A stretch of 30,242 nucleotides of DNA from Borrelia coriaceae (lineage in GTDB: Bacteria > Spirochaetota > Spirochaetia > Borreliales > Borreliaceae): positions 1-30,242 of the forward strand of contig NZ_CP075080.1 of assembly GCF_023035295.1 (NCBI RefSeq). Direction: 5' to 3'. Below, piece after piece: positions 3,403 through 30,104 of this stretch (the first letter of the stretch is position 1; every line of letters begins with the position of its first letter). A program made the translations under genes and the position numbers. The notes under the pieces were generated by a model, which did no database searches, had not been told where the DNA came from, and was given only the letters and a program-made list of their open reading frames with translations.

Positions 3403-3464
3403 TTGACAAAAATAATTTTTGCTATATAGTTATTTGTATAAAAAACAATATAAAGGAGTTTTAT
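3403..3464 (+). promoter_or_regulatory. Promoter and RBS of ERF gene (shared 52-bp element, copy 1)
   Basis: Candidate -35 TTGACA (3403-3408), extended -10 region TTTTTGCTATATAGT (3416-3430; TATAGT 16 nt after the -35), then the leader AACAATATAAAGGAGT with the ribosome binding site AAAGGAG ending at 3458. Bases 3408-3459 are identical to the reverse complement of 30046-30097, which precedes the exonuclease gene. The two operons should therefore respond to the same signals. Confidence 0.7.
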
Positions 3465-4550
3465 ATGAAAATAAATAAAATAACAAAGAGTAATATTCAA
3501 AATATAAAAACTCGGGTGTGTGAAGCAAATAAGAAGCTAAAATCAAATAAAAAAAGAAAAGTACAAGATTTAATAATAAATGAAAATCAAGTAAAGATAG
3601 ACTTTCTAAAGTCATTACACAGTCTACAAATGAGTTTAAATGGTGTAGGCAAGAATCTTAATGGATATGGATATAAATATCAAGATTTTAATGAAATAGT
3701 AAGGGAAATTAAGAATGTTATAAAAACTAATAATTTAGATATTGGTTTTGTACAATGTCCAACTTTAAAAAGTTTTGATGGGCGTTTGATTAATGTTATT
3801 ACAACAACATTTTATAGTCCTAGCAGTGGATATAGCCAGTCATTTGATACACCAATATATACAGAAGAATTAACCTCAACAGGAGTAAAGAATCAAAATA
3901 CACTTCCACAACTTGTAGGTTCATGTATAACATATTTTAAGAGGTATGCACTTGTAGCGTATCTTTCCATTGAAAGTGAAGTTGATACTGATGCATGTTC
4001 TTTAGAACATAGACAAGAAGATAATAAAGAACAAGTTAGCATGGCAAATAACACATCTATGGAAACTGTCAAAGGAAGTAGAACTGTTAATGTTAAAAGT
4101 ACTAATGCTAAAAAAAACGCTATTAAAGGAGCAATAAAAGCACAGTCTATTGGTTGTAAATCCGTTAGAGGGGGTGATGAGCTTCCTAAGCGTGTACCTT
4201 CTAAGTATTATTATTACAAGAACTTACTTCAAGCGTCTAAAAGGATGCATTCACAATTAGAAGATACTCCTTTTGATAGTCTAGAAATGATAGATAAGTT
4301 TTTACATCAATTACAAGAAGATGATGATTCTAATATACTTAATTATTTTGAAACTAAACCAGAGCTTAAAACTATAGAATATTGGACAAACTTACTGAAT
4401 AATTATTTAACAAGGACCCAGTCTGATCCAGAAGTTGTAGAAGGGTTTTCTAAATTCTTAGTGTATAGAGAACCTAAATATGGTCAAAGTCCATTAAAGC
4501 TTTTTGGATATATAGCAAGTGATGAGAATTTTAGGTATCTTTGTGAATAA
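3465..4550 (+). CDS. ERF-family single-strand DNA annealing protein
   Basis: 361 aa. It contains an ERF domain at about residues 45-178, with the typical segment GSCITYFKRYALVAYLSI at 152-169 followed by the acidic ESEVDTDA. ERF proteins are phage recombinases that coat and anneal single-stranded DNA during phage recombination or circularisation. The partner nuclease (YqaJ type) and SSB lie at the other end of the sequence, adjacent on the circle beyond the partition genes, and the nuclease starts from an identical promoter. The C-terminal half (180-361) is not part of the ERF core and is unrecognised; it may contact SSB or DNA. The N-terminal 45 residues are strongly basic. The ATG is placed 5 nt after AAAGGAGTT. 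Confidence 0.88.
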   Translation: MKINKITKSNIQNIKTRVCEANKKLKSNKKRKVQDLIINENQVKIDFLKSLHSLQMSLNGVGKNLNGYGYKYQDFNEIVREIKNVIKTNNLDIGFVQCPTLKSFDGRLINVITTTFYSPSSGYSQSFDTPIYTEELTSTGVKNQNTLPQLVGSCITYFKRYALVAYLSIESEVDTDACSLEHRQEDNKEQVSMANNTSMETVKGSRTVNVKSTNAKKNAIKGAIKAQSIGCKSVRGGDELPKRVPSKYYYYKNLLQASKRMHSQLEDTPFDSLEMIDKFLHQLQEDDDSNILNYFETKPELKTIEYWTNLLNNYLTRTQSDPEVVEGFSKFLVYREPKYGQSPLKLFGYIASDENFRYLCE

Positions 4551-4571
4551 AGATATACCCCTATTCTGTTA

Positions 4572-4612
4572 AAAGATAAGCCTTGAGGGCTTATCTTTAT
4601 TTAATTTTTTAA
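4572..4612 (+). terminator. Terminator between ERF gene and late operon end
   Basis: Perfect 11-bp stem AAAGATAAGCC / GGCTTATCTTT (4572-4582 and 4588-4598), loop TTGAG, followed by ATTTAATTTTTT. It terminates the ERF transcript. Because the convergent lipoprotein gene stops 3 bases further on, the same hairpin can also serve the leftward late operon. Confidence 0.85.
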
Positions 4613-4954
4613 TTTCGAATATTTTTTATATACTATTTGTACAATAGGTTTAGTGATTTGAATGTACTTTTGAAACAAATTTATATTAAACATTAAATCA
4701 TCAATTGTATGATTTGATTTAAGTGTAGAAGCATCAAAGTAGGTAAACTTAGGATACTTTGGGTCATTAACCTTTTTCTTTGTTCTAGTTAAAAATACTT
4801 GTAAATACATAACATAATCAGATAACTTTGCTTCATATGCATTTAACTCTGTAAGAGTTTGTTCCTTAGGTGGCGTTGGCTCTTCTGTTAGTGATGCTAT
4901 GGTTGTACATGAGAAGATAAGTGTTAAAAAAGTTAAATTTATAAGCTTTTTCAA
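4601..4954 (-). CDS. Small lipoprotein (BBA14-like), end of lysis region
   Basis: 117 aa. The N-terminus MKKLINLTFLTLIFSC is a spirochaetal lipoprotein signal peptide with a relaxed lipobox (LIFSC, lipid Cys 16). The mature part is short and helical and starts with a proline-rich linker (TEEPTPPKEQ), then a probable coiled helix to the end. It resembles the small cp32 lipoprotein found after BlyA/BlyB (BBA14-type family; from memory, not verified). The start is TTG, supported by AAAGGAGG just upstream. It is the last gene of the late operon. Its place after the holin-like genes would suit an outer-membrane disruption (spanin-like) role, but that is inference. Confidence 0.6.
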   Translation of the reverse strand: MKKLINLTFLTLIFSCTTIASLTEEPTPPKEQTLTELNAYEAKLSDYVMYLQVFLTRTKKKVNDPKYPKFTYFDASTLKSNHTIDDLMFNINLFQKYIQITKPIVQIVYKKYSKLKN

Positions 4955-4955
4955 A

Positions 4956-5291
4956 TTAGGCCTCCTTTAACATTTTGATGTAAGTACTCATTATTTTGTT
5001 GCGTTTAGCTCTGAGTTGAGATATGTATTTTGAAAGTTCATCATACTCATCAGCAGTTTCTATTATTTCAATATTAATTCTTAGTATTTCTTCAATTTCA
5101 GATAATAGTTTGATAGCTTCCTTTTGTTCCATTTGATATACACTAGCTTCATATAGACAGTAAAAGTAATTGACTACTTTAGTGAAAATATTAATGTATG
5201 TAGCAGTGTTTTTATTTTGGTTATTGTTTTTGATGATATCTGTAAATTTGTTTAGAATTTCAACGCTAGTTTTAGCAGTACTTAATTTCAT
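4956..5291 (-). CDS. Hypothetical cp32 protein after BlyB
   Basis: 111 aa, predicted mostly alpha-helical with heptad-like stretches (EIEEILRINIEIIETADEYDELSKYI). It has no signal peptide or membrane segment. A strong ribosome binding site AAAAGGAG precedes the ATG, 12 nt after blyB. It corresponds in position to the conserved small gene following blyAB in cp32 plasmids. Its general build (about 100 aa, helical, two or three amphipathic helices) is like BlyB, so the two may be distant paralogues. No function can be assigned from sequence; a role in lysis timing or membrane-protein stabilisation is conjecture. Confidence 0.6.
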   Translation of the reverse strand: MKLSTAKTSVEILNKFTDIIKNNNQNKNTATYINIFTKVVNYFYCLYEASVYQMEQKEAIKLLSEIEEILRINIEIIETADEYDELSKYISQLRAKRNKIMSTYIKMLKEA

Positions 5292-5303
5292 TTTGTCTCC
5301 TTT

Positions 5304-5609
5304 TCATGATATATAATTTGTGAAGGCAATTTCATATATATTTGGGTTGCTATTAACTTTTTCTATAAATGCTTTTATTTTGATTTGGATAGGTTCAAGA
5401 TCCAACTTTATTTGTGGAGTTAATGCATTATCTAGTATTTCCATATTTTTAGTGTAGATTTGTTCATATTCTAAATAAAATTCACACAATAATGAAAATG
5501 CTTTATGAGCATTCTCATTGAAACTGCCGTCTTTGAAGTTTGAAAGTGTATCAATTAAATTGGATATTGACTCTAAAGCAGTATCTAGATGTTGCTTTTC
5601 AAGTATCAT
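5304..5609 (-). CDS. blyB: BlyB, BlyA-associated protein
   Basis: 101 aa helical soluble protein (ALESISNLIDTLSNFKDG near the start; IQIKIKAFIEKVNS near the end). I recognise it as BlyB by its position immediately after blyA and by size. In Lyme-group cp32, BlyB is reported as a soluble protein that stabilises the BlyA membrane protein and its haemolytic activity in E. coli. Its ATG overlaps the blyA TGA (ATGA, 5606-5609), indicating translational coupling and a fixed ratio of the two products. There is no membrane segment. Confidence 0.75.
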   Translation of the reverse strand: MILEKQHLDTALESISNLIDTLSNFKDGSFNENAHKAFSLLCEFYLEYEQIYTKNMEILDNALTPQIKLDLEPIQIKIKAFIEKVNSNPNIYEIAFTNYIS

Positions 5610-5803
5610 ATCTCCTCCTTCTCATCTTTGTCTTTTTGTTTGCATTGTGTTTTAAACTTATCTAGTAAGATATTTAAAATATCTTTAAGTACTGGTTTTA
5701 ATAGAAATGCAAGTCCTAGGATTAAACCTGAGATAACAAGTAACTTATTGCCATCAATACCAAGTAAAAGCTGTGTTAAATTATTTATATTTGTATCATT
5801 CAT
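5606..5803 (-). CDS. blyA: BlyA holin-like membrane protein
   Basis: 65 aa. A single strongly hydrophobic segment at residues 19-37 (NKLLVISGLILGLAFLLKP) is followed by a short amphipathic helix and a highly charged tail (KDKDEKEEI). That is the design of a one-span holin and matches BlyA of the cp32 prophages. It would permeabilise the inner membrane at the end of the lytic cycle. It heads the small lysis cassette blyA-blyB-hypothetical-lipoprotein. A possible - strand promoter (TTTTTTGATATATAGTT, 5838-5854) precedes it in the 72-nt gap after the fibre-like gene. No endolysin gene was found nearby. Confidence 0.85.
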   Translation of the reverse strand: MNDTNINNLTQLLLGIDGNKLLVISGLILGLAFLLKPVLKDILNILLDKFKTQCKQKDKDEKEEI

Positions 5804-5837
5804 TTATGCTTTAACCTCACTTTAAAAATTATTTAGC

Positions 5838-5869
5838 TACAACTATATATCAAAAAATAGTTTTTGCTA
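5838..5869 (-). promoter_or_regulatory. Possible blyA promoter overlapped by TTTTTGCTA element
   Basis: Read on the - strand, TTTTTTGATATATAGTT (5838-5854) closely resembles the TTTTTGCTATATAGTT core of the ERF and exonuclease promoters. Just upstream, 5858-5869 holds the + strand 12-mer TAGTTTTTGCTA, which recurs at 21126 and 26346. This could give lysis genes a promoter separate from the structural genes. No transcript evidence is available. Confidence 0.4.
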
Positions 5870-5875
5870 TTTAAT

Positions 5876-6682
5876 TTATAACTTTACTAAAGCAGGTACA
5901 TAGCTACCACTTTTATATAAACGTTTTTGAATATACCAACCTCTAAAAAGAGGAGAATAATCATTTAAAGTCATATTGCTACCCCCACGTTCATAGATAA
6001 TTGACTTTTGTGATTCACTAGAATATTTAAGATACACATATTTTTTGACACTGCTACTTCCAGCATAAATTGAAACATCAACATATATATCTAAGTAAAT
6101 AGGCTTGTCATCATCAGAGCTGTAGAAAACAAGAGTTACATCTTGATTTGAATACTGTGATGTCATGTCTAATCTGTAAGCTTGCCTTCTAAGTGAAGAT
6201 TCATAAATGGATGAGCTTGTGGTTCCTTCTCTTGTTGAATTGAACCCTGAAGGGATTCCTGTTAGATATTCAGGTATTTGTGATCTTTGCAATGAACTGT
6301 AACTTGAAGTAACAAAGTAGTCATCTTTGCTTAAGCTATGTGTTGATAATCCACTTCCAAGTTTATCTTTAACTTTACTATATGTATTTGAAATACTACT
6401 AGATTCATCATTTAAAAATTTGCTAAGTATTTTACTGTAGACTTGATTTATGAAATCATCATCTTGTTGTAATTCTGTAGCAATAGTACTTTTAATAATT
6501 TCTTTAAAATAAGTAAGTCCTTCACCTTTAAAAGTTTTATCTTTAGTAGTTTTAAGGAAATTTTCAAAAGTAATAGCATTACAACTTGAAATACCATCAT
6601 CGAGTAGTAATAAATCAGTATTTTTAACTGATTCAAGTCTATTTAAATCTTTAATTTGAATACAATCGTCTTGGTCACTCAT
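5876..6682 (-). CDS. Tail fibre-like protein (DUF685 family)
   Basis: 268 aa. The N-terminal stretch DLNRLESVKNTDLLLLDDG is like the short attachment region at the start of many tail fibres. A helical region follows (30-100), and then a Ser/Tyr-rich C-terminal domain (about 140-268) with probable beta structure and short repeats of SS. It lies downstream of the gpI-like gene, where contractile phages keep the fibre gene. I assign it to the cp32 family DUF685 from memory. It is the best candidate for the host-recognition protein. ATG with AAAGGAG upstream (6690s). No chaperone gene was seen next to it. Confidence 0.6.
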   Translation of the reverse strand: MSDQDDCIQIKDLNRLESVKNTDLLLLDDGISSCNAITFENFLKTTKDKTFKGEGLTYFKEIIKSTIATELQQDDDFINQVYSKILSKFLNDESSSISNTYSKVKDKLGSGLSTHSLSKDDYFVTSSYSSLQRSQIPEYLTGIPSGFNSTREGTTSSSIYESSLRRQAYRLDMTSQYSNQDVTLVFYSSDDDKPIYLDIYVDVSIYAGSSSVKKYVYLKYSSESQKSIIYERGGSNMTLNDYSPLFRGWYIQKRLYKSGSYVPALVKL

Positions 6683-6697
6683 TTATATAAACTCCTT

Positions 6698-7300
6698 TTA
6701 AATATTAAATTTAGCAATTTCCTTATTTTCCATGTCATATAATTTTAAGGCCCTTCCAATTGGTATTAAGTTTTTTAGGAACGTGTAAATAGATTCAGCA
6801 TATCCTTTAGGAAGGAAGTGAAAAATTAAGATTTTACATTGGATATTTTCATTTTCTTTTTTATAGCATAATTTGATTTTTCTATTTCTATTAGTAGTAG
6901 AACTAGGTGAGATTTTAGCAGTAAAGTTTGTTTTAACAGCACCTAGTAATTTTATATTAATAACACCATCACTTGGTACTGTAATTTCAATATCAACATT
7001 AAGAAAAGTTTTAAATAACTTAGTAAAAGATGCATCAGTACCAATGTGTTTTAATGCATAAATAATACTATCAATATTTTTTGTAAGATCTTGAACAGGT
7101 TGTGTTTCAACATAAAATATATTAAATATCTTAGATAGCCAAGTAGCAATGAATCTAGATGTGCAGTGTTTACTAATTGGTAGTCCAGTAAAGTTAGAAT
7201 TTAGACTTACAAGTTCAGATAACATTACATTAGCAAAGTTAAGTTCATTTTGTATAAACTTATCAAGTTGACTATTTCGAGTAAACCCAATTTGATTCAA
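6698..7300 (-). CDS. Baseplate gpI-like protein (DUF735 family)
   Basis: 200 aa. Its position between the gpJ-like protein and the fibre, its length, and the layout (N-terminal helices, middle YALKHIGTDASFTKLFKTFLN, then a beta-rich segment, C-terminal YTFLKNLIPIGRALKLYD) fit the tail protein I / YmfQ-type baseplate wedge component that links baseplate and fibre. The motif around 60-110 resembles the part of gpI proteins where a short helical core precedes a small beta domain. The start is TTG, backed by TTAGGAG 8 nt upstream. The gap to the preceding gene is 10 nt. The DUF number is recalled, not searched. Confidence 0.6.
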   Translation of the reverse strand: MNQIGFTRNSQLDKFIQNELNFANVMLSELVSLNSNFTGLPISKHCTSRFIATWLSKIFNIFYVETQPVQDLTKNIDSIIYALKHIGTDASFTKLFKTFLNVDIEITVPSDGVINIKLLGAVKTNFTAKISPSSTTNRNRKIKLCYKKENENIQCKILIFHFLPKGYAESIYTFLKNLIPIGRALKLYDMENKEIAKFNI

Positions 7301-7310
7301 AATTTAGCTC

Positions 7311-8192
7311 CTAACTTTCAATATCAATGATTAATCTATGAGTAATATCAAATACAAGTAACTCTGAAGGTTGTACAGTAATATCTTTATTTTCATTACT
7401 ATTAAATTCACTACTTAAATCTGATATGTTTGTACTTGTATCATCTTTAGTTACTGCAAATATTTTCATGCTTTTAATACCTTTAATTTCATTAACGGGA
7501 GCAAGGAAATCTTGATATTCAAAGCTAATACCCATATCAGAATAATTGTTTTTGATGATGCGATCATAGATATTTCGTATTTGTTTATCAATGTTAAGAT
7601 AAGTATGGTTTTTAATATCTAGACTGTATTTAACTTTAAGATAAAGATACTTTTTTTTACCAAGTGTGACTTTGTATACTTTTTTTTGATTTATTTCATT
7701 CATTCCATCAATTTCAATATCTCCTTCAAGGTTAGTACCACTAGGAACAGTCTCATAAAGCATATTCCAAAGATTGGCTTTAAATTTAGAATCTTGAATT
7801 TGAGCTTTAGATGTATTTAATACAGATTCATTTAAGAGTAGATATATCTTAACCTTACCAGCTTCACTTGTAAGATTAGCATATTCAATTTTATCTAGGT
7901 TAAGTAATGCTTTTATTACTCCAGGTTGGGTAATACTATTTGAAGTTATATATTTTTGAATAATTTGGAAAAATTCTCCACCGGGTTGCATTTTATCAAA
8001 AAATAAATTAAGCTCATTAATGATCTGTTCTTCTACAATTGAAAGTGAGGTTGCTATAATATTATAAATTGAAGATGGGTCATCACTTATTACAACATTA
8101 TACATTTGCATTAAATATTCTTTTTTAGTCTCTACGATTTGGGAAATATTTTGTTTTAAAATTCCAAAATTGGGATCAAATATGATACTCAT
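7311..8192 (-). CDS. Baseplate J-like protein (DUF276 family)
   Basis: 293 aa. Baseplate J/gp47-like features are visible: an N-terminal helix leading to SIVEEQIINELNLFFDKMQPGGEFFQIIQKY (positions about 51-81, in two pieces), the usual region preceding the conserved beta-barrel core, followed by alternating beta segments. It would form the baseplate wedge with the gp25-like and gpI-like neighbours. The ATG overlaps the end of the gp25-like gene by 4 nt. It is shorter than many gpJ proteins (usually 300-480 aa) but ordinary for cp32. Confidence rests on gene order as much as sequence. Confidence 0.65.
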   Translation of the reverse strand: MSIIFDPNFGILKQNISQIVETKKEYLMQMYNVVISDDPSSIYNIIATSLSIVEEQIINELNLFFDKMQPGGEFFQIIQKYITSNSITQPGVIKALLNLDKIEYANLTSEAGKVKIYLLLNESVLNTSKAQIQDSKFKANLWNMLYETVPSGTNLEGDIEIDGMNEINQKKVYKVTLGKKKYLYLKVKYSLDIKNHTYLNIDKQIRNIYDRIIKNNYSDMGISFEYQDFLAPVNEIKGIKSMKIFAVTKDDTSTNISDLSSEFNSNENKDITVQPSELLVFDITHRLIIDIES

Positions 8193-8521
8193 GTATTAAT
8201 AACCGTTTCAAGTGAGTCACCTGGGAAGTAAAATGTAATATTTAATTTTTTAAGTTTAATTTCAACTTTGATTCCTACAAGATTAATTTGTAATTCATTA
8301 ATTACGTTGTAAAAGTATGTTTTAATTTGATTTAGCTTTCCTAGTTTACATACTTTTAAAAGATATAAATAGTCAAGTCCCCACTGTGGTGCGTAAGATA
8401 TACTTCCCTTTAGTGTTTTAAGAAATATAAATAATCGTTGTTTTTGTTCTTCAACACCATCTATGATATTTAAGTCATTGTTAAATATTAAATCGAAGTT
8501 GTTATTAATTTTGATATCCAA
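8189..8521 (-). CDS. gp25/GpW-like baseplate protein
   Basis: 110 aa. The pattern NFDLIFNNDLNIIDGVEEQKQRLFIFLKTLKGSISYAPQWGLDYL is typical of the small gp25-like baseplate wedge protein: a segment that reports 'nothing before the given region', then the acid-rich IDG-EEQ-Q-L core, and a late Gly-Leu-Asp-Y. These proteins start sheath assembly in contractile tails. The start is TTG, with AAAGG 8 nt upstream. An extended -10-like element TTTTTGCTAAAAT lies about 45 nt upstream on the same strand (8561-8573), so a secondary promoter for the baseplate/fibre part of the operon is possible. Confidence 0.65.
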   Translation of the reverse strand: MDIKINNNFDLIFNNDLNIIDGVEEQKQRLFIFLKTLKGSISYAPQWGLDYLYLLKVCKLGKLNQIKTYFYNVINELQINLVGIKVEIKLKKLNITFYFPGDSLETVINT

Positions 8522-8558
8522 TCTTTATACCTTTAACCACGAAAATAAATATATAACT

Positions 8559-8575
8559 ATTTTAGCAAAAATCTA
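8559..8575 (-). promoter_or_regulatory. Possible internal late-operon promoter
   Basis: On the - strand: ATTTTTGCTAAAATAG, an extended -10 (TGC then TAAAAT) of the same type as at 3416, 25541, 26349 and 30081. It overlaps the end of the spike gene, where the only sizeable gap (about 50 nt) in this part of the late operon occurs. No clear -35 was seen. Confidence 0.35.
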
Positions 8576-9349: not shown

Positions 9350-9373
9350 ATGTATCTCCTTTTTAATTATGAT

Positions 9374-10315: not shown

Positions 10316-10319
10316 TAAG

Positions 10320-17173: not shown

Positions 17174-17749
17174 TTAACTTGGTTTACCTTTATTACCATA
17201 AATAGCTACATTTACTATGCAAAGCTTTTTTTCAGTATCAAGTTCGATTACATCTGATAAGGCCATGGCATTAATTTTGCCATTACTTGAATCATTTTTT
17301 TCAAGCTCACCATTTGTATTAAATTTAAGTTTGTCTTTTCTTTTTATACTACTGCTTTCTTTTGCTACTAAATACCCTTGAAAGTTATTTGTAATGGGAA
17401 TTACTGTAGCAGTATTAGTAAACTCATCTATGTCTATGCATATGCCATAAATGTCATCTTCACCACCAACTGCAACATGAGGTTCAAAGTGTGGTTGACC
17501 ATCACTTGATGTTGTATCTACAACTAGCTTTACTCCTCTTTTGTATGGATAGCCTTTAAAGAAGTAATTCTCTAATTTGTCATGCCTACTAGTTACAGTA
17601 CCACCTTGATTTTGTAAATGTCTATTTTTATCCCTAAAATCAACTTTATTACTAAAAACCCCAGCATCACTAGTAGGGTTTTTCATTTGTTTTTTTAATT
17701 TCTTAAGTTTTTCTTGATATTCAGTTACTAACTGAGTTACAGTTGACAC
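17174..17749 (-). CDS. DUF228 virion protein, paralogue 3
   Basis: 191 aa. One of three adjacent homologous genes. Shared core: DKLENYFFKGYPYKRGVKL (57-75) and YGICIDIDEFTNTATVIPI (101-119), then NNFQGYLVAK, and the C-terminal VAIYGNKG. The Gly/Val-rich beta core with a KGYPYKRGV entry looks like a capsid decoration or head-fibre protein (in shape like lambda gpD-type DUF2190 proteins, which also have 'A.T.I..GDpVYldgg' patterns), but this is inference. The start is GTG with AGGAGG upstream. It lies directly before the capsid gene and is probably strongly expressed. Confidence 0.65.
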   Translation of the reverse strand: MSTVTQLVTEYQEKLKKLKKQMKNPTSDAGVFSNKVDFRDKNRHLQNQGGTVTSRHDKLENYFFKGYPYKRGVKLVVDTTSSDGQPHFEPHVAVGGEDDIYGICIDIDEFTNTATVIPITNNFQGYLVAKESSSIKRKDKLKFNTNGELEKNDSSNGKINAMALSDVIELDTEKKLCIVNVAIYGNKGKPS

Positions 17750-17776
17750 TTTAACCTCCTAACCTTTTGCTTTACT

Positions 17777-18616
17777 TTAAGAAACTGCCTTATTACCATA
17801 AATGGCTATCTTTATTAAATACAGCTTATAATCCTCTTGTTGTTTCTTAGTATTATCATCACTAAGGTGTAATGTAAATATATCTGATAATGCAATTGCT
17901 TTAATTGAAACTGATGACGAACTAGATGCATTAATAACTTCTCCATTTGAATTAAAATCTAATTTATCACCAATAGAAACACCCGAAGAACTGCTAGCAA
18001 TTACATACCCTTCAAAATTATTTGTTATAGGTATTACTGTTGCTACATTAGTATGCTCATCAATGTCTATGCATATTCCATACATATTCTTACCATCAGA
18101 TACTTCAACTTGAACTTCATCAGATTTTTCAGTTTCAACTTTTAATTTAACCGCACGCTTGTATGGGAATCCTATAGCAGGGTATTCTTCTAACTTATCT
18201 GTACTACTTGATACAGATTGAGATATAGCATCAAATGTTAAGTTTTTATCTCTAAAATCAGTTTTAGCTTTAAATACTGACCTTTCATCATAATTAAAAC
18301 TTTTAGAATATTTCTTTAACTTTAATATAACGTCTTTCAATGACTTACCCTCGTCAGTTTCAAGTACTGCTGCTTGCCTTTTTCTTCTACTTCGTCCTCT
18401 TGTTCTAGAAGGTTGTTGTAATTCTTCTCCTTGTTCTTCGTCTTTTTGTTCATCATCATTGTCTTCATCATCTTCTTTTATTCGTTCTTGTTGTAACTGT
18501 TGTTTTAAAGTCTCAATCAGTTCATTATCATCCATGCCAGCATACATATCGGGTTCAAGTGTTCCATGTCCCAAATTAGGTACTAAGCTTGGATTGTGAT
18601 TACCCTTGTTACCCAC
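17777..18616 (-). CDS. DUF228 virion protein, paralogue 2 with charged N-terminal extension
   Basis: 279 aa, about 90 residues longer than its two paralogues. Residues about 34-90 contain an acidic/Gln-rich run (DDEDNDDEQKDEEQGEE) and then a very basic run (RTRGRSRRKRQ), which the neighbours lack. After that the family core follows: DKLEEYPAIGFPYKRAVKL, YGICIDIDEHTNVATVIPI, NNFEGYVIA, and IAIYGNKA at the end. The start is GTG, sharing its G with the upstream TAG (TAGTG), AGAGG 12 nt before. The extension could bind DNA or scaffold, or be cut off on maturation. An internal ATG at residue 23 is a possible second start. Confidence 0.65.
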   Translation of the reverse strand: MGNKGNHNPSLVPNLGHGTLEPDMYAGMDDNELIETLKQQLQQERIKEDDEDNDDEQKDEEQGEELQQPSRTRGRSRRKRQAAVLETDEGKSLKDVILKLKKYSKSFNYDERSVFKAKTDFRDKNLTFDAISQSVSSSTDKLEEYPAIGFPYKRAVKLKVETEKSDEVQVEVSDGKNMYGICIDIDEHTNVATVIPITNNFEGYVIASSSSGVSIGDKLDFNSNGEVINASSSSSVSIKAIALSDIFTLHLSDDNTKKQQEDYKLYLIKIAIYGNKAVS

Positions 18617-19182
18617 TATGAATTAAGGCCTCTGTTCCCAAATATACTTACAAGTGCTATATATAGTTTTTCATTGATTTCAAATGGCTTTGATAAGGCA
18701 ACTCCATTAACAGTACGAGAACCTGAACCACTGTCATTTTCAATCTCTCCATTTGAATCAAATTTAACTTTCCCACCAAGTGTAATAGAAGATTGACTAC
18801 TTTGTTTTACTACTAAATATCCAGTAAAGTTATTTGTTATAGGTATCACTGTAGCAGTATTAGTAAACTCATCAATATCTATGCATATACCATATAGATC
18901 ATCACCACCCCCGGCTTCAACACAAGGCTCATCACTATCATTTGCTTCGTAAGATAACTTAACACCACGTTTATATGGGTATCCTTTAACGGGATAATTT
19001 TCTAATTTGTCAACACTGCTAGTTAGAGTACCACCTTGATTTGCAAAGTGTACACTTTTGTCTTTAAAACCTATATCTACATGAAAAAGCCCAGCATCTC
19101 TATTAGGGTTTTTCATTAGATCTTGTATTTCTTTTACCTTTTTATCATATTCTTCTTTAAGTTTAGTTATAGTATCTGACAT
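18616..19182 (-). CDS. DUF228 virion protein, paralogue 1
   Basis: 188 aa. First of the three DUF228 genes in transcription order. N-terminal short coiled helix (LKEEYDKKVKEIQDLMKNPN), then DKLENYPVKGYPYKRGVKL, GGGDDLYGICIDIDEFTNT, NNFTGYLVVKQSS and VSIFGNRG. It is clearly a paralogue of the 17174 and 17777 genes; the 191-aa paralogue is the closest by length and N-terminus (KNPxxDAGxF motif in both). A virion surface or head-fibre role is likely from position between scaffold-like and capsid genes. ATG, AAGGAG upstream. Confidence 0.65.
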   Translation of the reverse strand: MSDTITKLKEEYDKKVKEIQDLMKNPNRDAGLFHVDIGFKDKSVHFANQGGTLTSSVDKLENYPVKGYPYKRGVKLSYEANDSDEPCVEAGGGDDLYGICIDIDEFTNTATVIPITNNFTGYLVVKQSSQSSITLGGKVKFDSNGEIENDSGSGSRTVNGVALSKPFEINEKLYIALVSIFGNRGLNS

Positions 19183-23292: not shown

Positions 23293-23302
23293 TTCTTAAC
23301 CT

Positions 23303-23848: not shown

Positions 23849-23904
23849 ATCTTTAACACAAGTTAACCAATAAGTTAACAAAAATATAATTAATTAACAT
23901 AAAC

Positions 23905-23931
23905 TCTATAACAAAATAATAAACTTTGCAA
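23905..23931 (-). promoter_or_regulatory. Candidate late-operon promoter
   Basis: On the - strand, TTGCAA (23926-23931), a 15-nt spacer and TATAGA (23905-23910), about 57 nt before the small terminase ATG. The two GTTAAC motifs lie between the promoter and the gene. The spacer is short, so this is a weak call; the divergent mlp promoter lies on the other side. Confidence 0.35.
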
Positions 23932-23956
23932 AAACAATGCGTAAGCATCAATAATA

Positions 23957-24017
23957 TAGACTGATTATAAAATAATAATCTATAATAACTTAGATCATGT
24001 ATAAGATAGATAAGGAG
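23957..24017 (+). promoter_or_regulatory. mlp promoter and ribosome binding site
   Basis: TAGACT (23957-23962), 18-nt spacer, consensus TATAAT (23981-23986), then AAGGAG at 24012-24017, 6 nt before the ATG at 24024. It is a complete and strong-looking signal set in front of a gene whose 3' half is broken. Confidence 0.6.
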
Positions 24018-24023
24018 AATATT

Positions 24024-25137
24024 ATGCAAATATTTATCAAATTATTAGTACTTTGTAGTACATTATTCTTGTATTGTTGCAATTCGGATAAAATTAATGA
24101 CATGTCTGATAAGACTATACCAATACCACATAAATTACCTATAATTACCTATAAAGGTCCAAGTAATCTACAGACGAAAACCCGTAAACCACCCGAAACA
24201 AAAACTGATACCTTAACTGCTGAGAATACTATCACTAATAAACCACCCGAAACAAGAACTGATACTTTAACTGCTGAGAATACTATCACTAATAAACCAC
24301 CCGAAACAAGAGTTGCTACTTTAATTGATGATGAAAAGCAAAAATTTGACGTTCTTATAAATGCATTTAATAAAATGATAGAGTTAAAGCTATTACCAGA
24401 TGATGAATTACAAAAAAGTCAAAACTTTTTAAATTGGATACGATCAACAGACGTACAAAAACAAAAAGAATTAGCTAATGCTTTTACTCTAGCCTATGAT
24501 TTCTTAAAAGACAAAACATCCCTAACAATCAAATAATTTGACCATTACTCAATTTATAAATAATGCTTTGACTTGCAACGATACAAATCAATGTAATGAT
24601 ACATATACAAAATTCCAGATAGACGTATACAAACTTTTTTTAGAAATATTCTATACGGCACAATTAAAGCAAGCAATAACAATGAAGAAAGATTTCAAGA
24701 TCTCAAGACAGAATTACTTAGACGGAATAATCATGTAAATTTTTTATTAGGAATAGAGAGGTTCGAAAGAAAAATAAGAATGCAACTAAAAAATGATAAT
24801 AACCGAACACAGGTTTTTAATTTCTTAATGAATGCTTTGACACAGGATCTGACACAGGACATGAATATTTATATTAGATCGGATTTCTCATTGTCATTTT
24901 TTGAATTTAAAGGTAATGGAACAGTAAATCCCACAAATCTTGAAAAGCTAAAATCTATATTAGATCATATACATACAGAACTTAACAAGTGTAATGGAAA
25001 TGAAACTGGTAAAAATAATTTTGGGAAGTCGCATAAAAGACTATTTCTTAAAAGCATACCAAGACAATACACTTTATAATGGCCACGACATATTTAATAA
25101 ATTTAAAACTGAAGTATTAAGCGATTGTCAAAAGTAA
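24024..25137 (+). pseudogene. mlp: mlp lipoprotein locus, 5' part open, 3' part frameshifted
   Basis: The ATG at 24024 (not 23997) follows AAGGAG. The signal peptide MQIFIKLLVLCSTLFLYCC ends in a lipobox with Cys 18/19, then NSD, as in Mlp proteins. A Pro/Thr-rich part with 18-aa repeats follows, then a helical domain (FLNWIRSTDVQKQKELANAF) up to a stop at 24536 (170 aa). Mlp-like sequence continues in shifted frames: ITQFINNALTCNDTNQCND (24538 on), NNNEERFQDLKTELLRRN (from about 24675), LEKLKSILDHIHTELNKCNG (to about 25010), and after another shift DYFLKAYQDNTLYNGHDIF with a stop at 25137. The tail may be one gene or two fused copies. The 170-aa lipoprotein could still be made. Confidence 0.75.
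24186..24323 (+). repeat. 54-bp tandem repeat in mlp
   Basis: Two full 54-bp units (24186-24239, 24240-24293) and a partial third. The coded unit is KPPETxTDTLTAENTITN. Only a few bases differ between units, so the duplication is recent. It lengthens the flexible linker just after the lipidated N-terminus. Confidence 0.9.
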
Positions 25138-25154
25138 ACAAAAGAATTAAATAC

Positions 25155-25204
25155 ACCTCTCATAATTAAGGCTTGCAAGTAAAGAAAGAGTACTTAAGAG
25201 AGGT
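25155..25204. repeat. Inverted repeat upstream of recombinase
   Basis: ACCTCTC (25155-25161) pairs with GAGAGGT (25198-25204), and inside it TTAAG (25166-25170) pairs with CTTAA (25193-25197). The centre is 22 nt. It could be a recombinase site, a terminator of the mlp transcript, or chance; no T-run follows. Confidence 0.4.
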
Positions 25205-25520
25205 AAATTTAAAAGAAAGTAATAGTTTATAAGGAAATATAAATTAAAGTGATTACAAAAATGGTAAGTTGAACAAAAAAGTTAACTTGAGGTTAACTGA
25301 TAATAAGAAGTTAAAATTTATTATACATAAATGCATCGACGTAAAATGAGAAGTCATTAAAAAAGACCATAGAGTAGATATAGAGTAAATAATTTAGTAT
25401 TTGTAAAATATAAGACAAAGTACCTATTGAATAATAGTTTAAGATACAAAAAAATAAACATTCTAGTTATAAAAATGACCTTAAAGACAATATTTTATAT
25501 ACAATGCTAAGCATCTAAAT

Positions 25521-25550
25521 TTGACTTTAAGAGTAAGTATTTGCTAAGAT
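25521..25550 (+). promoter_or_regulatory. Recombinase gene promoter
   Basis: TTGACT (25521-25526), 18-nt spacer and TAAGAT (25545-25550) with the extended TGC just before (TTTGCTAAGAT). It lies 54 nt before the ATG. No good Shine-Dalgarno precedes the ATG (only GTAAAG), so translation may be weak. Confidence 0.55.
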
Positions 25551-25603
25551 TTTTATAGTTAAATTTATATATTTTTAATGTGTTTAGTTAACTTGTAAAG
25601 TAC

Positions 25604-26341
25604 ATGCAAAGAGAACATTTAATTAATAAGTTAATAAAGGAAAATACACAATTAAATGAAGAACTAAATCTTCTAAAACTTAATCTTAAAGATAAGAAAA
25701 CCAAGCAAACAAGAAGTATTCCTATAAGGTTTTATCTTAATGATAAGATAATAAGATTAGTAAAGAGGTGTATAGAAAAACTTAAAGAAAAAGACCCAAT
25801 CTCAGGATGGTTTGTATATTTACTCTCAATTACTGGTTGTAGAGGTGTTGAGATTCAAAATGTAAAACTTACTGATATCTCTAAAGAGAGAAGTAGTGAT
25901 GGTGAAATGTTTTATTCTATTCGTGTAAATGTAGCTAAAAAAAGAAATAGTATATGCATAAGAGAAGTAGTCATTAGCAAATCTGAATTCAACTCTATAA
26001 TGCAAGCGCATCAAAACTACTTTCTATCTAAAGGAAAAGACACAAGGCGTACATATCTCTTTCAAAAAAGTAAAGTTAAATTTAAAGACAACAAAATTGA
26101 TATAATTAACATTTCAAAACAGTTTAAGGAATTACTAGTTAAATCTGGATTTAAATATCGTAAGTCCTTACATATATGCCGTAATATATTTATAGCATCA
26201 CTTAAAGCTAAAGGATACAATTCATTTGAAATAAAAGAACTTATGAAATACTCATCCACTTCTGAAATTGATAATGTCTATGGCCTATCCAGTGCTAGTA
26301 AGATACAAGCTTACAAAGATATCAAAAATAGCTTAAATTAA
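25604..26341 (+). CDS. Tyrosine recombinase (phage integrase family)
   Basis: 245 aa. Box I: ITGCRGVEI with Arg80. Likely beta-hairpin lysine K112/K113 (VAKKRN). Box II: HICRNIF with His190 and Arg193. The usual second His (GHSS) is replaced by KYSS (215-218). The nucleophile is Tyr226 in DNVYGL. The N-terminal 40 residues form a charged coiled coil in place of a full core-binding SAM-like domain, so it is a short form. Likely jobs are resolving plasmid dimers or joining cp32 to other replicons. It is a monocistronic rightward gene followed by a promoter-like element and terminator. Start ATG with poor RBS. Confidence 0.8.
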   Translation: MQREHLINKLIKENTQLNEELNLLKLNLKDKKTKQTRSIPIRFYLNDKIIRLVKRCIEKLKEKDPISGWFVYLLSITGCRGVEIQNVKLTDISKERSSDGEMFYSIRVNVAKKRNSICIREVVISKSEFNSIMQAHQNYFLSKGKDTRRTYLFQKSKVKFKDNKIDIINISKQFKELLVKSGFKYRKSLHICRNIFIASLKAKGYNSFEIKELMKYSSTSEIDNVYGLSSASKIQAYKDIKNSLN

Positions 26342-26345
26342 CTAC

Positions 26346-26371
26346 TAGTTTTTGCTAAAATATTGTATAAT
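26346..26371 (+). promoter_or_regulatory. Promoter-like TAGTTTTTGCTA ... TATAAT
   Basis: The repeated 12-mer TAGTTTTTGCTA (26346-26357), whose TGCTAAAAT is an extended -10, is followed by a consensus TATAAT (26366-26371). It begins 5 nt after the recombinase stop and points towards a terminator 55 nt on, with no gene between. Confidence 0.5.
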
Positions 26372-26377
26372 ATTAAC

Positions 26378-26447
26378 AAATGAAAAACTAAACAAGCAAA
26401 ATTTTACTTCATATAAAAACTAAGAGGCTTTAGGTCTCTATTTTTTT
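26378..26447 (+). ncRNA. Candidate small RNA
   Basis: If transcription starts about 7 nt after TATAAT, a transcript of about 70 nt would end at the hairpin/T-run 26423-26447. It contains only a 3-codon frame (ATG AAA AAC TAA, 26379). Being convergent with the methylase gene, it could also act as antisense on readthrough. No homology evidence. Confidence 0.35.
26423..26447 (+). terminator. Rho-independent terminator
   Basis: Stem AGAGGC / GTCTCT (one G.U pair), loop TTTAG, then A and seven T (26441-26447). The G.U pair is valid only in the + strand transcript, so it serves the recombinase/small RNA side; the methylase gene ends 16 nt further on from the other direction. Confidence 0.75.
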
Positions 26448-26463
26448 ACACATAAATTAATAC

Positions 26464-27276
26464 CTATATACTGAATATTTCCTTTTGGATATACCTAGTG
26501 TTTTTACAAGTTATACTTGATTTACTAGTTTTGTATGAAGTTGCTAGTATCTCATATTTAGTATGACCAAAAGTATTAGCTATACCACTTGATAAAGCTA
26601 TATAATTAATATGAAGATTATATTTTAAAAAAAGTTCTAATACCTCCTTATCATCAAATTCACTTATTGCAAACTTCCAATTATATCTCTTCATTTCTAT
26701 AATGAGCTTTTCTAAACAGTCTAAATTCCAACCCCGATTCTCATGCAAACGACCTCGTGATATTGAATATGGAGGATCAAGATATACAAATGTTGAAGGA
26801 ATCTTATCTTTCTTAGTTACAGCATTTAAAAAGTCAAATATGTCACGAGAAGTCAATACTGCAAAATTAAGCATTTCTTTGATTTTGGATTTATAAGTAT
26901 TTAACTTCTCTAAAAATAGTTTCTTAGAATTATTTTTATTAAATTTTATAGTTGTACTACATGTACCATAAATAGAATACAGAGTCCTTAATATGACATA
27001 TTCTATTTTATCTTGATTCTCATTTATAACTCTGTCATAAATAATTGCTTCTCTTACACGTCTGTAAAGCAAATCAGGATCTTGTTTTAAAAAATAAAAA
27101 AGCTTGTATATAAACTTAGAATTATCATTGAGTATGTTATAACAAGCTAATGGTTTTGCAAAAAATATAGATCCAGTACCAAAAAATCCTTCGATATATA
27201 AAGTATGTTTAGGAAAAAGACTTATAATGTTGGCTTTGTACCTATACTTACTGCCTTCTCTATTTAATAATTTCAA
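26464..27276 (-). CDS. DNA adenine methyltransferase (D12/Dam class)
   Basis: 270 aa. N-terminal SAM-binding motif I EGFFGTGSIFFAKP (29-42), ILNDNSKFIYKLF (48-60), and catalytic motif IV DPPY at 167-170. This is the Dam/D12 class of N6-adenine methylases. The usual motif I form is EPF.GGG; here it is EGFFGTG, so one Gly is replaced by Thr. It may protect phage DNA from host restriction or mark it for replication control. The start is TTG overlapping the DUF261 stop (TTGA) without a clear RBS, so it depends on coupling. It is the last gene of the leftward early operon. The target sequence cannot be told from here. Confidence 0.85.
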   Translation of the reverse strand: MKLLNREGSKYRYKANIISLFPKHTLYIEGFFGTGSIFFAKPLACYNILNDNSKFIYKLFYFLKQDPDLLYRRVREAIIYDRVINENQDKIEYVILRTLYSIYGTCSTTIKFNKNNSKKLFLEKLNTYKSKIKEMLNFAVLTSRDIFDFLNAVTKKDKIPSTFVYLDPPYSISRGRLHENRGWNLDCLEKLIIEMKRYNWKFAISEFDDKEVLELFLKYNLHINYIALSSGIANTFGHTKYEILATSYKTSKSSITCKNTRYIQKEIFSI

Positions 27277-27689
27277 ATTTTATTAAATACCCTTTTTGAT
27301 GTAACTTGATATTCCTTACCTTTTCCATCAAGACATAATGAGTCATAACACACTAAGGAATTATTAGTTGCCATAAAATGATAACCTTGGATACCTTTGA
27401 TTTTAACTTCACTTATTTCAAATTCATTCAATTTACATTTATAAGAATGGTGTTCCCATCTTACATCACTATTAATACCATAGTATTTAAGTATTTTGCA
27501 TGGATTTAAAATAAAACAATTACATTTCATATATCCTAAATCAACAAACTTGTGATAATTAACATTAATATCATTGATACTAAACTGTAATTTCTTAAAG
27601 TTTGCTATGTAATAATGAAGAGATAAAAAGTAACATCCCCAGCGCTGTATCTGAAGAACTAGCTTGGAATCATCTTGTTTTACACACAT
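27273..27689 (-). CDS. DUF261 protein, cysteine-peptidase-like pattern
   Basis: 138 aa. I recognise the Borrelia DUF261 family. The arrangement QIQRWGCYFLSL (Gln13/15, Cys19 followed by a helix) ... GYHFMATNN (His104) ... VCYDSLC (Asp116) follows the Gln-Cys-His-Asp order and the 'HFV....v.i.DP' strand of C39/papain-like folds. That reading is mine and is not based on a search. Five further Cys are present. It lies between a hypothetical protein and the methylase. No signal peptide is present, so it would act in the cytoplasm. ATG start; RBS AAAGG upstream. Confidence 0.65.
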   Translation of the reverse strand: MCVKQDDSKLVLQIQRWGCYFLSLHYYIANFKKLQFSINDINVNYHKFVDLGYMKCNCFILNPCKILKYYGINSDVRWEHHSYKCKLNEFEISEVKIKGIQGYHFMATNNSLVCYDSLCLDGKGKEYQVTSKRVFNKI

Positions 27690-27707
27690 CTTTAACCTTT
27701 AACCTCC

Positions 27708-28058
27708 TTAACCAATATTTAAGCTATCCATCAAAACCCCTAATCTCATCACATCATCAAACAAATACAACATCCGATCTAAAAACATAGATAATTTAAA
27801 TGATTTATTTACAAAGATACTCTTCTTAGTAATCTTGGTGATTCCACATTCAAAAGCTTCTTCATAATCTTCTTTGCAAAATCCCAAAAACACATCTAGA
27901 CACCACTTAGCATTTTTGATAGAAAACCTTTGATCACTAAGTTTTTCAAATATAGTGTCTCCACACTTATATTTCCTATTAAAGAAAATATCTTCAAAAT
28001 CATCACTATTCCTAATAATTTCTTTTAAAATCTCACGCTTAGAGATAAGCTTACCCAA
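27708..28058 (-). CDS. Hypothetical protein of early operon
   Basis: 116 aa, not recognised. Helical, moderately basic, with several aromatic and Cys residues (IKNAKWCLDVFLGFCKEDYEEAFECG in parts) and a hydrophobic C-terminal helix SMFLDRMLYLFDDVMRLGVLM that is too acidic for a membrane span. The start is TTG, supported by AAGGAG 7-8 nt upstream (28066-28072 region). It lies between SSB and DUF261 in one operon, so it may be a DNA-metabolism accessory or host-takeover protein, which cannot be decided from sequence. Confidence 0.6.
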   Translation of the reverse strand: MGKLISKREILKEIIRNSDDFEDIFFNRKYKCGDTIFEKLSDQRFSIKNAKWCLDVFLGFCKEDYEEAFECGITKITKKSIFVNKSFKLSMFLDRMLYLFDDVMRLGVLMDSLNIG

Positions 28059-28083
28059 ATTTAAACTCCTTGACTTTTAATCA

Positions 28084-28479
28084 TTAAAATGGAATATCTT
28101 CATAAAACTCTTCTTTAGAGTTAATATAACTAGTTTTTTCAACATTATTATGTGAGGTTAAAACTTGAATCTCATCAACTAAAATACTGTACTTACTTTT
28201 ATTCTCACCAGTACGCTTACAAGACCAACTCTCATGACGCAATGACCCATTAATTACAACTTGTGCTCCTTTGATAAGGAGTGAAACTAAACTCTCATCC
28301 CTATTACCAAATAGAATACAATCAAAAAATTGAGCATGATTAGTGAATTTATCATCTTTCTTAAATCCCCTATTATTAGCTAAAGTAAACTTTAGAGTAG
28401 GAATTTTGTTACCAAGGTGAATAAACTCACAGTCCCTAGTTAAACGACCCGACATACTTAAAGAATTAATATCAAACAC
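28084..28479 (-). CDS. ssb: Single-stranded DNA-binding protein
   Basis: 131 aa. The OB-fold pattern is clear: SMSGRLTRDCEFIHLGN at the start, LKFTLANNRGF, FFDCILFGNRDESLV, KGAQVVINGSLRHESW, and SILVDEIQVL. The acidic tip ends in DIPF, the standard C-terminal peptide that recruits partner enzymes. It is a phage/plasmid-encoded SSB serving the exonuclease/ERF recombination set and replication. The start is GTG with AAGGA upstream; the ATG at codon 8 (MSGRL) would cut the first strand, so GTG is preferred. Its start overlaps the preceding small gene by 8 nt. Confidence 0.92.
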   Translation of the reverse strand: MFDINSLSMSGRLTRDCEFIHLGNKIPTLKFTLANNRGFKKDDKFTNHAQFFDCILFGNRDESLVSLLIKGAQVVINGSLRHESWSCKRTGENKSKYSILVDEIQVLTSHNNVEKTSYINSKEEFYEDIPF

Positions 28480-28678
28480 TAGAATTTTCCTTATCCCTTA
28501 ATCTACTTAGCATTTCCATGCGTATTAAGTCATGTTCGAATCGTTTTAGGTCTGCTAAAAATTCTTGTCTTGAATATAGATTATAAACTACTCTCTCTAT
28601 AATCCTTTTGCAAAGCCCACACAAGAACTTTATAAGTTTATAAGATATAAATAAGGATAATACTATCATCAAGCCCAT
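28472..28678 (-). CDS. Small membrane protein
   Basis: 68 aa. One hydrophobic N-terminal segment (GLMIVLSLFISYKLIKFLCG, about 2-21), then a basic, amphipathic cytoplasmic part (ERVVYNLYSRQEFLADLKRF). It is placed between a hypothetical gene and ssb with an 8-nt overlap onto ssb, so the reading frame is real. It has the size and shape of small phage membrane proteins, e.g. second holins or superinfection-exclusion factors, but nothing specific identifies it. ATG with GAGAGGAGG directly upstream. Confidence 0.6.
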   Translation of the reverse strand: MGLMIVLSLFISYKLIKFLCGLCKRIIERVVYNLYSRQEFLADLKRFEHDLIRMEMLSRLRDKENSSV

Positions 28679-28690
28679 GTGCCTCCTCTC

Positions 28691-28957
28691 CTAAACAGCA
28701 CTTATACTAGATGTAGACCAATCATTATCTAAATCCAAACTATCAAAATTGAAGTTAATATCACCACCTAAAGACTTAAATCTATCCTTAATAGCTCTCT
28801 TAGTTGTATCTATAGAGAATAGATTGCCTTCAAGATAATAATGTATATGTTCAAGTAAAGAGAATTCTCCTAAAACTGAATTTATACATAATTTAAGCTT
28901 ATCTTTAATAGGCTTTGTTATCTTATCTAACTCTAACTTATGTTTTTTTAGTATCAT
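28691..28957 (-). CDS. Hypothetical protein after exonuclease
   Basis: 88 aa, not recognised. N-terminal basic helix (KKHKLELDKITKPIKDKLKL) and an acidic end (FNFDSLDLDNDWSTSSISAV). It overlaps the exonuclease gene end by 20 nt, which suggests coupling and a fixed ratio, and might be a small partner or inhibitor of that nuclease. The acidic C-terminus could mimic DNA or SSB's tip; this is conjecture. ATG start. Confidence 0.55.
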   Translation of the reverse strand: MILKKHKLELDKITKPIKDKLKLCINSVLGEFSLLEHIHYYLEGNLFSIDTTKRAIKDRFKSLGGDINFNFDSLDLDNDWSTSSISAV

Positions 28958-30041
28958 TCTCTACTTTGTCAATTTTACATTGTAAATCATTAATCTCTAA
29001 TAAGCATCCCTTTAAACGTTGATTCTCATAAGAATTAGTATCTAAATCAACAGACTTTACAAAATCTAAAAAATCAATCTTGTAATTTGATTTAGATAAT
29101 TCATTATATAAGCAACTAGCCTTAAAGAAATTATCTATAAGAGTAATTAATGCGTCTAAATTAATATTTTTGACATCACAGTTCTGTTTTAAATATTTAG
29201 CAATACGATTAACTTCACTCTCAAGTTTTTCAATACCAAACATTACCTTACTAATAAAAGCATCATTTCTATCTATTACACAGTTAATAGCGTCATTACC
29301 TATGATAAAGAACAAATTACCCTTACTTAAACCAGTACATGCAAGCTGAACCTGAACTTGAACATAATATTTAAAGAAATACTTATTTTCTAGAAAATTA
29401 CCGGTTTTATTATATTCAATAACAGCACTTTTTAAATCAATGGAATCACTGCATTTAATCTCAAGTAATTCTGATTCACCTTCTTTATTTATAAACCAAC
29501 CATCAATTGTAGAACCTATTAAATTGTCTTCCTTACCATACTTTTTGAAGTAATTATACTTATCTATCCCATTAGCATATTTGTTTTTATATAAAACCTC
29601 TATATTATCAGAATATATACGTACAAATTCATCAAATGCTAAATTTTCTAATACCTTGCCTTTTCGCATGCTTAAATTATCTTGAAATGGAATTTCCCTA
29701 TCTATAGATTTTAAAATCCTTTCAAGTACAAGTTTTGACAAATGAGCAGTACCAATAAACATGTTTCCAACTTCACTTGCTCCCATACGCCTTAAAGATT
29801 GTCTTTGAACACTAAAATCAACTGTACTATTAAACTTAAAATATTCATTCTTACCAATTCTTGATAGCTTGCGACATATTTTGTTTATTTTACTAGTGTT
29901 ATTTTGTTTGCCTTTAACCTGCTCTTGACTTTGATACGTAAATGCTTCAAAACCTTCAAGCATTTTTTGAGTGTATAAACCAAGATGATTCACCTTAACC
30001 TCTAATCTTTGATTATTTATTTTTGATATATTCGTATTCAT
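28938..30041 (-). CDS. YqaJ-type phage recombination exonuclease (DUF244-type)
   Basis: 367 aa from the ATG at 30041 (MNTNISK). A longer frame to 30086 would run through the promoter; AAAGGAG just upstream of 30041 sets the start. Nuclease motifs: GASEVG (87-92), GKVLE with Glu132, STIDGWF with Asp180, and LLEIK with Glu194 and Lys196, i.e. the PD-(D/E)XK set of lambda-exonuclease-like proteins. The C-terminal 100 residues are coiled coil (CLLEINDLQCKIDKVENDTK in parts), absent from lambda Exo. It would resect DNA ends to produce single strands for the ERF protein. It is the first gene of the leftward early operon and has the same promoter as the ERF gene. Confidence 0.85.
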   Translation of the reverse strand: MNTNISKINNQRLEVKVNHLGLYTQKMLEGFEAFTYQSQEQVKGKQNNTSKINKICRKLSRIGKNEYFKFNSTVDFSVQRQSLRRMGASEVGNMFIGTAHLSKLVLERILKSIDREIPFQDNLSMRKGKVLENLAFDEFVRIYSDNIEVLYKNKYANGIDKYNYFKKYGKEDNLIGSTIDGWFINKEGESELLEIKCSDSIDLKSAVIEYNKTGNFLENKYFFKYYVQVQVQLACTGLSKGNLFFIIGNDAINCVIDRNDAFISKVMFGIEKLESEVNRIAKYLKQNCDVKNINLDALITLIDNFFKASCLYNELSKSNYKIDFLDFVKSVDLDTNSYENQRLKGCLLEINDLQCKIDKVENDTKKT

Positions 30042-30045
30042 GAAT

Positions 30046-30104
30046 ACTCCTTTATATTGTTTTTTATACAAATAACTATATAGCAAAAATTATTTTTTGA
30101 CAAA
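30046..30104 (-). promoter_or_regulatory. Exonuclease promoter and RBS (shared 52-bp element, copy 2)
   Basis: Read on the - strand it holds TTTTTGCTATATAGTT, the leader AACAATATAAAGGAGT and the RBS. Bases 30046-30097 are the exact reverse complement of 3408-3459. The upstream hexamer differs (TTGTCA in place of TTGACA, one base further away), so the strengths of the two promoters could differ slightly. Confidence 0.7.

Follow-up and report, generated by a model that had tools for sequence, protein, structure and literature searches.

The stretch of DNA studied here (the window: contig C5 of Borrelia coriaceae assembly GCF_023035295.1, 30242 bases) carries the replication and partition cassette of a cp32-like plasmid, flanked by genes for an ERF recombinase and a YqaJ exonuclease whose upstream regions share a 52-bp inverted repeat. 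As originally predicted, this repeat is an exact reverse complement: bases 3408-3459 on the plus strand and 30046-30097 on the minus strand agree at all 52 positions, and self-comparison of the window extends the likeness to 75 nt at 91% identity. With up to 3 mismatches allowed, the 52-mer occurs at just these two sites in the assembly (24 contigs, 1.79 Mb), and a reversed-pattern control gave 0 sites. Each arm does hold a leader and ribosome-binding site (RBS), together with most of a promoter whose boxes we read by eye. If the contig is circular, as relatives annotated as circular such as NZ_CP073138.1 suggest (overlaps of 20-299 bases between the window ends were looked for and none was found), the arms bracket around 3.55 kb, in line with the estimate of about 3.6 kb. 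This bracket had been described as containing only replication and partition genes with their control sites, but a predicted small-RNA gene (3254-3392) also lies inside it; neither this gene nor the further leader copy that precedes rep (30220-30235), the third in all, had been noticed. The closest named records over the first 8 kb of the window are B. turicatae plasmids (around 83%; the same or very near genomes were possibly left out of this comparison). The features that matter here are the following:

1-1107, plus strand: rep (Borrelia orfA, family match; presumably of PF57/62 type), third target of the predicted RNA
1118-3022, plus strand: DUF226 (which we take to be PF50), ParA and Plasmid_parti (PF49) genes, inside the bracket with rep (family match)
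3254-3392, plus strand: predicted antisense small-RNA gene (-35 TTGATT at 3254-3259 and -10 TATATT at 3277-3282, by eye)
3289-3313, plus strand: 5' hairpin of the small RNA, GAGTTC / GAACTC (fold of the window RNA)
3306-3326, plus strand: seed (antitag), predicted to pair with the exonuclease, ERF and rep leaders
3339-3392, plus strand: terminator hairpin of the small RNA with its T-run, just upstream of the ERF promoter
3408-3459, plus strand: arm 1, with ERF leader, RBS and most of the promoter (TTGACA at 3403-3408, -10 within 3423-3430, by eye)
3443-3458, plus strand: private tag and Shine-Dalgarno (SD) sequence of the ERF leader, AAACAATATAAAGGAG
3465-4550, plus strand: ERF single-strand annealing recombinase (PF04404, family match), predicted target
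28938-30041, minus strand: YqaJ exonuclease (family match; DUF244 match sub-threshold), predicted target
30046-30097, minus strand: arm 2, with exonuclease leader, RBS and most of the promoter (TTGTCA just upstream at about 30098-30103, by eye)
30047-30062, minus strand: private tag and SD of the exonuclease leader
30220-30235, plus strand: private tag and SD of the rep leader

The original prediction had named a lack of conservation in related plasmids, together with the lack of a shared transcription pattern of the two operons, as what would speak against it; the first half of this did not come about. We sampled 62 cp32-like units from 14 genomes, including that of the window, and counted the pair as present if the two upstream flanks aligned above all 20 base shuffles. 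This was the case in 57 of the 60 units with both flanking upstream regions readable. The arms vary in length and sequence between plasmids; those of the Lyme group reach up to around 200 bp and are alike within a plasmid. In three sister plasmids (L004, L006 and L008), the recombinase in the slot held here by ERF matches both RecT and ERF queries, with ERF best at its end.

Side-by-side comparison of the leaders revealed a tag of 10-15 nt before the RBS that is near-private to each plasmid. Within a plasmid, the same tag usually recurs in the leaders of exonuclease, recombinase (ERF or RecT) and rep, and co-resident plasmids mostly carry different ones. Leaders were picked by a promoter-to-SD rule that still misses some of them, and tags were scored as matching at 8 or more of 10 positions. 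By this measure, exonuclease and recombinase tags match in 32/42 units compared to 3/174 comparisons between different plasmids of the same genome, with corresponding figures of 29/46 and 7/186 for exonuclease and rep and of 33/41 and 5/156 for recombinase and rep. At later loci, the same three pairings match in 22/25, 29/32 and 29/32 cases, respectively. Several of the non-matches are register shifts of one base. The rep promoter differs from the arm promoters, yet rep usually has the tag. Between the rep promoter and its tag, the window also contains a perfect palindrome, TTTATCATTAGTAATGATAAA (30202-30222), which overlaps the rep leader and may be an operator or a leader hairpin. Separately, the recombinase frame of L070 (G021 C7) seems to stop a few codons in, and its exonuclease tag resembles that of G021 C3 by eye.

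When the cassette was searched for sequence complementary to the tag, a recurrent frame emerged, which consists of a TTGATT-type -35, a -10, a 5' hairpin that mostly ends in CUAC, a stretch of variable sequence and an intrinsic terminator. In alignments, this frame is conserved and the seed within it is variable. Frame, alignments and folds agree at the level of sequence on an RNA gene that has a promoter and an intrinsic terminator of its own, and the RNA of the window would span around 3289-3392 (roughly 105 nt, based on a start read from the promoter). The relapsing-fever alignment yields 22 predicted pairs, all in the terminator, of which 11 changed on both sides; in the Lyme alignment this is true for 4/21 (three terminator pairs and one pair of the 5' hairpin). 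The relapsing-fever consensus fold lacks a 5' hairpin, although the window's own RNA is predicted to form one. Covariance models built from 16 Lyme and 20 relapsing-fever sequences, with minus-strand matches that overlap a stronger match on the opposite strand taken as echoes of the terminator hairpin and excluded, gave matches of at least 60 bits in 37/41 Lyme and 20/39 relapsing-fever sources. The window gene is matched by model R2 (3273-3392, 79.9 bits), whose training set includes the window. Model R1 barely reaches relapsing-fever plasmids (0 matches in G017, 2 weak ones in G004). None of the 7 Rfam matches listed for window positions 2900-3700 attained its gathering score (lowest E-value 0.092, with 23.4 bits against 75). 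The Lyme units examined have the gene ahead of rep and the relapsing-fever ones have it behind PF49, so that simple inversion from arm to arm does not explain the difference between the two genera. At L092, L087/L088 and L136, a second copy lies across the cassette, and one of the two seeds per locus mismatches the plasmid's own tags.

The window's seed is complementary to the rep mRNA leader at its RBS and likewise to the other two leaders, with predicted duplexes of 16 bp and -19.0 kcal/mol for the exonuclease, 18 bp and -20.7 kcal/mol for ERF, and 19 bp and -22.0 kcal/mol for rep, all spanning the SD and including one G-U. This is not the classical cis arrangement, given that the seed (3306-3326) is encoded apart from its targets (3443-3458, 30047-30062 and 30220-30235). 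A first region-wide, ungapped test of such complementarity gave the observed mean in 0/20000 permutations for each gene, with rep tags strictly best in only 27/54. Because this test is weak for single units and was suggested by the same data, we used seeds placed by the covariance models and duplex energies instead. The model test covered 57 loci with one match kept for each; no test locus had been used to build the models, some loci came from the first fetch, and close relatives of training sequences were included. Model-placed seeds pair with their own rep tags at -14.7 kcal/mol compared to -6.5 kcal/mol for others (n=50, 0/10000 permutations), and contiguous runs of at least 9 occur in 33/50 own pairs against 72/2432 pairs with other tags. 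For all loci combined, the corresponding energies are -14.4 versus -6.2 kcal/mol for left-arm tags (n=35) and -14.2 versus -6.4 kcal/mol for right-arm tags (n=37), each with 0/10000 permutations. By run, the own tag is strictly best in 32/50 cases for rep, 21/35 for the left arm and 17/37 for the right arm.

Model R2 also places the RNA on further contigs of the window's own genome. When every leader found was tested for its six cp32-like units, seeds preferred their own leaders with the exception of one cross-talk pair. We then tabulated 13 seeds against 13 leaders of this genome, one leader per seed (rep throughout, except the recombinase for C4; C21 had no readable leader); the six cp32-like seeds had been located with the help of complementarity and the other seven by model. 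The own leader is best in 13/13 rows and 12/13 columns, with an own mean of -16.1 compared to -5.9 kcal/mol and 0/100000 permutations; specificity is lowest for C11 and pairing is weakest for C23 (-9.6 kcal/mol). The seven model-placed seeds lie on contigs other than intact cp32-like units, probably linear plasmids. Among eight non-cp32 loci of the Lyme group, the own pair is best in its row in 6/8. The code thus seems not to be confined to phage-plasmids, with thinner evidence outside them.

The original interpretation is therefore partly supported. Its proposal that the pair ties exonuclease and ERF expression together holds at the sequence level and can be widened, in that the shared part is a plasmid-specific tag that is present on rep as well and has a cognate antisense RNA encoded nearby. 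The pair looks less like a device made mainly for recombination than like a set of target sites for a regulator that the plasmid itself encodes. The explanation that we favor, and consider likely, is an antisense RNA, encoded in trans, that controls copy number replicon by replicon and keeps the recombination genes in check as well. From the sequence patterns we infer transcription of the RNA, translational repression, copy control and incompatibility as follows. The cassette would encode an RNA of around 105 nt with a 5' hairpin, an unpaired seed and a terminator, and this seed would recognize the plasmid-specific tag overlapping the RBS of the rep, exonuclease and ERF mRNAs. Pairing would cover the SD and block translation of rep, exonuclease and recombinase. 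Because the RNA is encoded by the plasmid that it controls, its level would track copy number and rise with it, damping replication, and the plasmid-specific seed would leave closely related plasmids of the same cell mostly unaffected by this control. Copy number and recombination would be limited as long as the plasmid is not scarce and the RNA level does not drop, as it might, e.g., upon prophage induction. On this view, the 52-bp inverted pair would owe its existence to the need for the plasmid's own tag on both exonuclease and ERF. Since it would serve as homologous arms as well, the cassette could invert with neither gene broken, and both recombination genes would stay expressed in either orientation, given that their leaders lie within the arms.

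Several observations weigh against this explanation. No inverted pair was detectable in 3/60 units (G007C13, G017C8 and G004C4a), the exonuclease tag of G021C9 does not match, and that of G021C7 likewise does not by eye. Rep tags are identical in 2/130 within-genome unit pairs (G004C4a/C4b and G007C3/C4a) and in G009C4 and L121, which belong to one genome; each such pair involves a long contig holding two units. No match of at least 60 bits was obtained for 19/39 relapsing-fever sources, some of them flank pieces without the site, and the best model match at L087/L088 has a non-matching seed. Three of six units with an inverted cassette lack an RNA match above 60 bits (37 bits for L125, none for G002C14 and G003C5). 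The contiguous run is below 8 in 17/50 rep pairs, a few automatically picked rep leaders resemble coding sequence, and the relapsing-fever left arm alone (n=7) reaches 24/10000 permutations by run. The antitag was found via complementarity, so that the positions in the first set, the region-wide test and the six cp32-like rows of the 13x13 table are partly circular; the test with model-placed seeds is the cleaner one. Units share ancestry, and the permutations consequently overstate independence. In the window's own genome, the RNA of G000C2 pairs better with the exonuclease leader of co-resident C6b (-13.1 kcal/mol) than with its own (-11.7 kcal/mol). Finally, 2/8 own pairs at the non-cp32 Lyme-group loci are not the best of their row: L181 is matched by the near-identical L185, and L184 does slightly better with another leader.

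A different reading of the tag is that of a DNA motif, for example a partition or replication site that PF49, PF50 or rep binds and that differs from plasmid to plasmid, present near the cassette in three direct copies and one inverted one. It would fit the plasmid-specific tag copies around the partition genes and the perfect palindrome overlapping the rep leader (30202-30222), but the tag directly precedes the SD of three genes and the inverted copy sits within the frame of promoter, hairpin, seed and terminator. The departures from complementarity speak to the same question. From 241 tag-seed pairs, 206 passed an 8-of-11 filter at first placement, and a subsequent Watson-Crick-only placement gave 93 unique pairs with 944 Watson-Crick, 31 G-U, 2 A-C and 46 transversion positions (G-U versus A-C p 6.5e-8, a value limited by the filter and by shared ancestry). 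An excess of G-U over A-C, which a strand-symmetric DNA motif would not predict, points to recognition of the tag as RNA rather than DNA, and we regard the DNA-motif reading as unlikely.

The original prediction had further suggested that the pair provides homologous arms for inverting the cassette, and natural cases of inversion support this. Orientation could be assigned for 111/114 units (three unassigned; the units are non-independent and some have one flank only). Among relapsing-fever units, rep adjoins the exonuclease in 50 and lies opposite in 5 (n=55), whereas in Lyme units it adjoins the recombinase in 55 and lies opposite in 1 (n=56), so that the two groups have opposite majority orientations. 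In B. hermsii DAH, the cassette of cp30-2 is inverted relative to that of the sister plasmid G004C2 of the same genome, with which it aligns in the other sense. Its RecT block ends at 1369 and its exonuclease block starts at 4900, with arms at 1253-1341 and 4899-4987 (unit coordinates); identity with the sister stops at one arm's inner edge and, at the other arm, 28 nt further in. Both orientations, with junctions in or at the inverted repeats, are thus found between plasmids of one genome. A query spanning the junction of PF49 and exonuclease was covered to at least 80% by seven plasmid records; one is the query's own, and the others come from B. miyamotoi (five) and B. nietonii (one). The RNA gene accompanies the inverted cassette at more than 60 bits in 3/6 opposite units (L003, L021 and L083). 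Identity blocks between B31-like cp32 pairs are too patchy for dating exchanges. The window also encodes a phage-integrase-type gene (25604-26341, family match).

These inversions, with junctions at the arms, and the long Lyme-group arms that are alike within a plasmid could suggest that the arms are identical simply because gene conversion or cassette inversion acts on repeats, with no common regulation involved. Arm-to-arm conversion accounts neither for the tag that rep usually carries behind a different promoter nor for the complementary seed, and we therefore judge this account quite improbable. That the pair mainly inverts the cassette, with expression of the flanking genes secondary, is very unlikely despite the opposite orientations in two genera and the sporadic inversions, since few units go against their group majority (5/55 and 1/56) and the leaders are intact after inversion, leaving no apparent on/off switch.

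Antisense control of plasmid replication, as preferred here, is an old principle. CopA of R1, RNAI of ColE1, RNAIII of pIP501 and the ctRNA of repABC plasmids all exert antisense copy control by an RNA transcribed opposite a single target. The Borrelia RNA resembles them as a small plasmid-encoded RNA complementary to the rep leader, whose plasmid-specific pairing would be expected to set copy number and incompatibility, but it differs in being encoded apart from its targets and in using a short seed for up to three of them, including recombination genes. Phage Red/ERF modules combine an exonuclease with an annealing protein that are expected to be co-produced. Both are present on the window plasmid as well, but they do not form one operon: the two genes are divergent, some 3.6 kb of DNA with the partition cassette separates them, and each has one of the twin leaders.

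In Borrelia itself, Sequence #5 of Delihas 2009 (PMC2674063) is a conserved motif of three stem-loops that directly follows a PF49-like gene on lp54-type plasmids; the passages describing it give no target, seed or function and call for further homologues. Our small-RNA gene occupies the same neighborhood, after PF49, in relapsing-fever plasmids. For the Borrelia circular plasmid cp8.3, two tandem inverted repeats next to putative -35 sequences were reported (Dunn et al., as cited in PMC2674063); unlike the pair of the window, they are described there as hairpins beside one open reading frame, in a passage that mentions no tags, seed or second gene. An inverted partition cluster is known from cp9 subtype III (PMC5310021), which is the same kind of cassette inverted, and the passages on this subtype mention no arms, tags or RNA. 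According to a small-RNA survey of B. burgdorferi (PMC5216591), small RNAs of repetitive regions were likely overlooked. The RNAs predicted here may already be among the 82 putative non-coding RNAs counted from cp32 prophages in PMC5051733. In the open-licence literature, we found no functional description of a Borrelia RNA that is encoded in trans and has a plasmid-specific seed for up to three targets.

Elsewhere in the window, a lipoprotein-like gene (23997-24536) contains three tandem 54-nt copies (24185-24346), and three consecutive paralogous genes, of DUF228 type according to an annotated relative, lie at 17174-19182 (136-nt repeats, 68-81%).

On balance, we lean toward a broader picture in which Borreliaceae plasmids, circular and probably also linear, would share a replicon-identity code made up of a largely private seed and a matching tag over the rep RBS that separates their copy control, with the exonuclease and recombinase of phage-plasmids placed under the same RNA to couple replication and recombination. 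Each predicted seed-tag pair is readily testable, and a co-resident plasmid offers a built-in control. If true, this code would explain the matching exonuclease and ERF/RecT leaders within one plasmid, represent a possible compatibility determinant beside ParA type, and provide a sequence-readable answer to how each replicon is counted separately.

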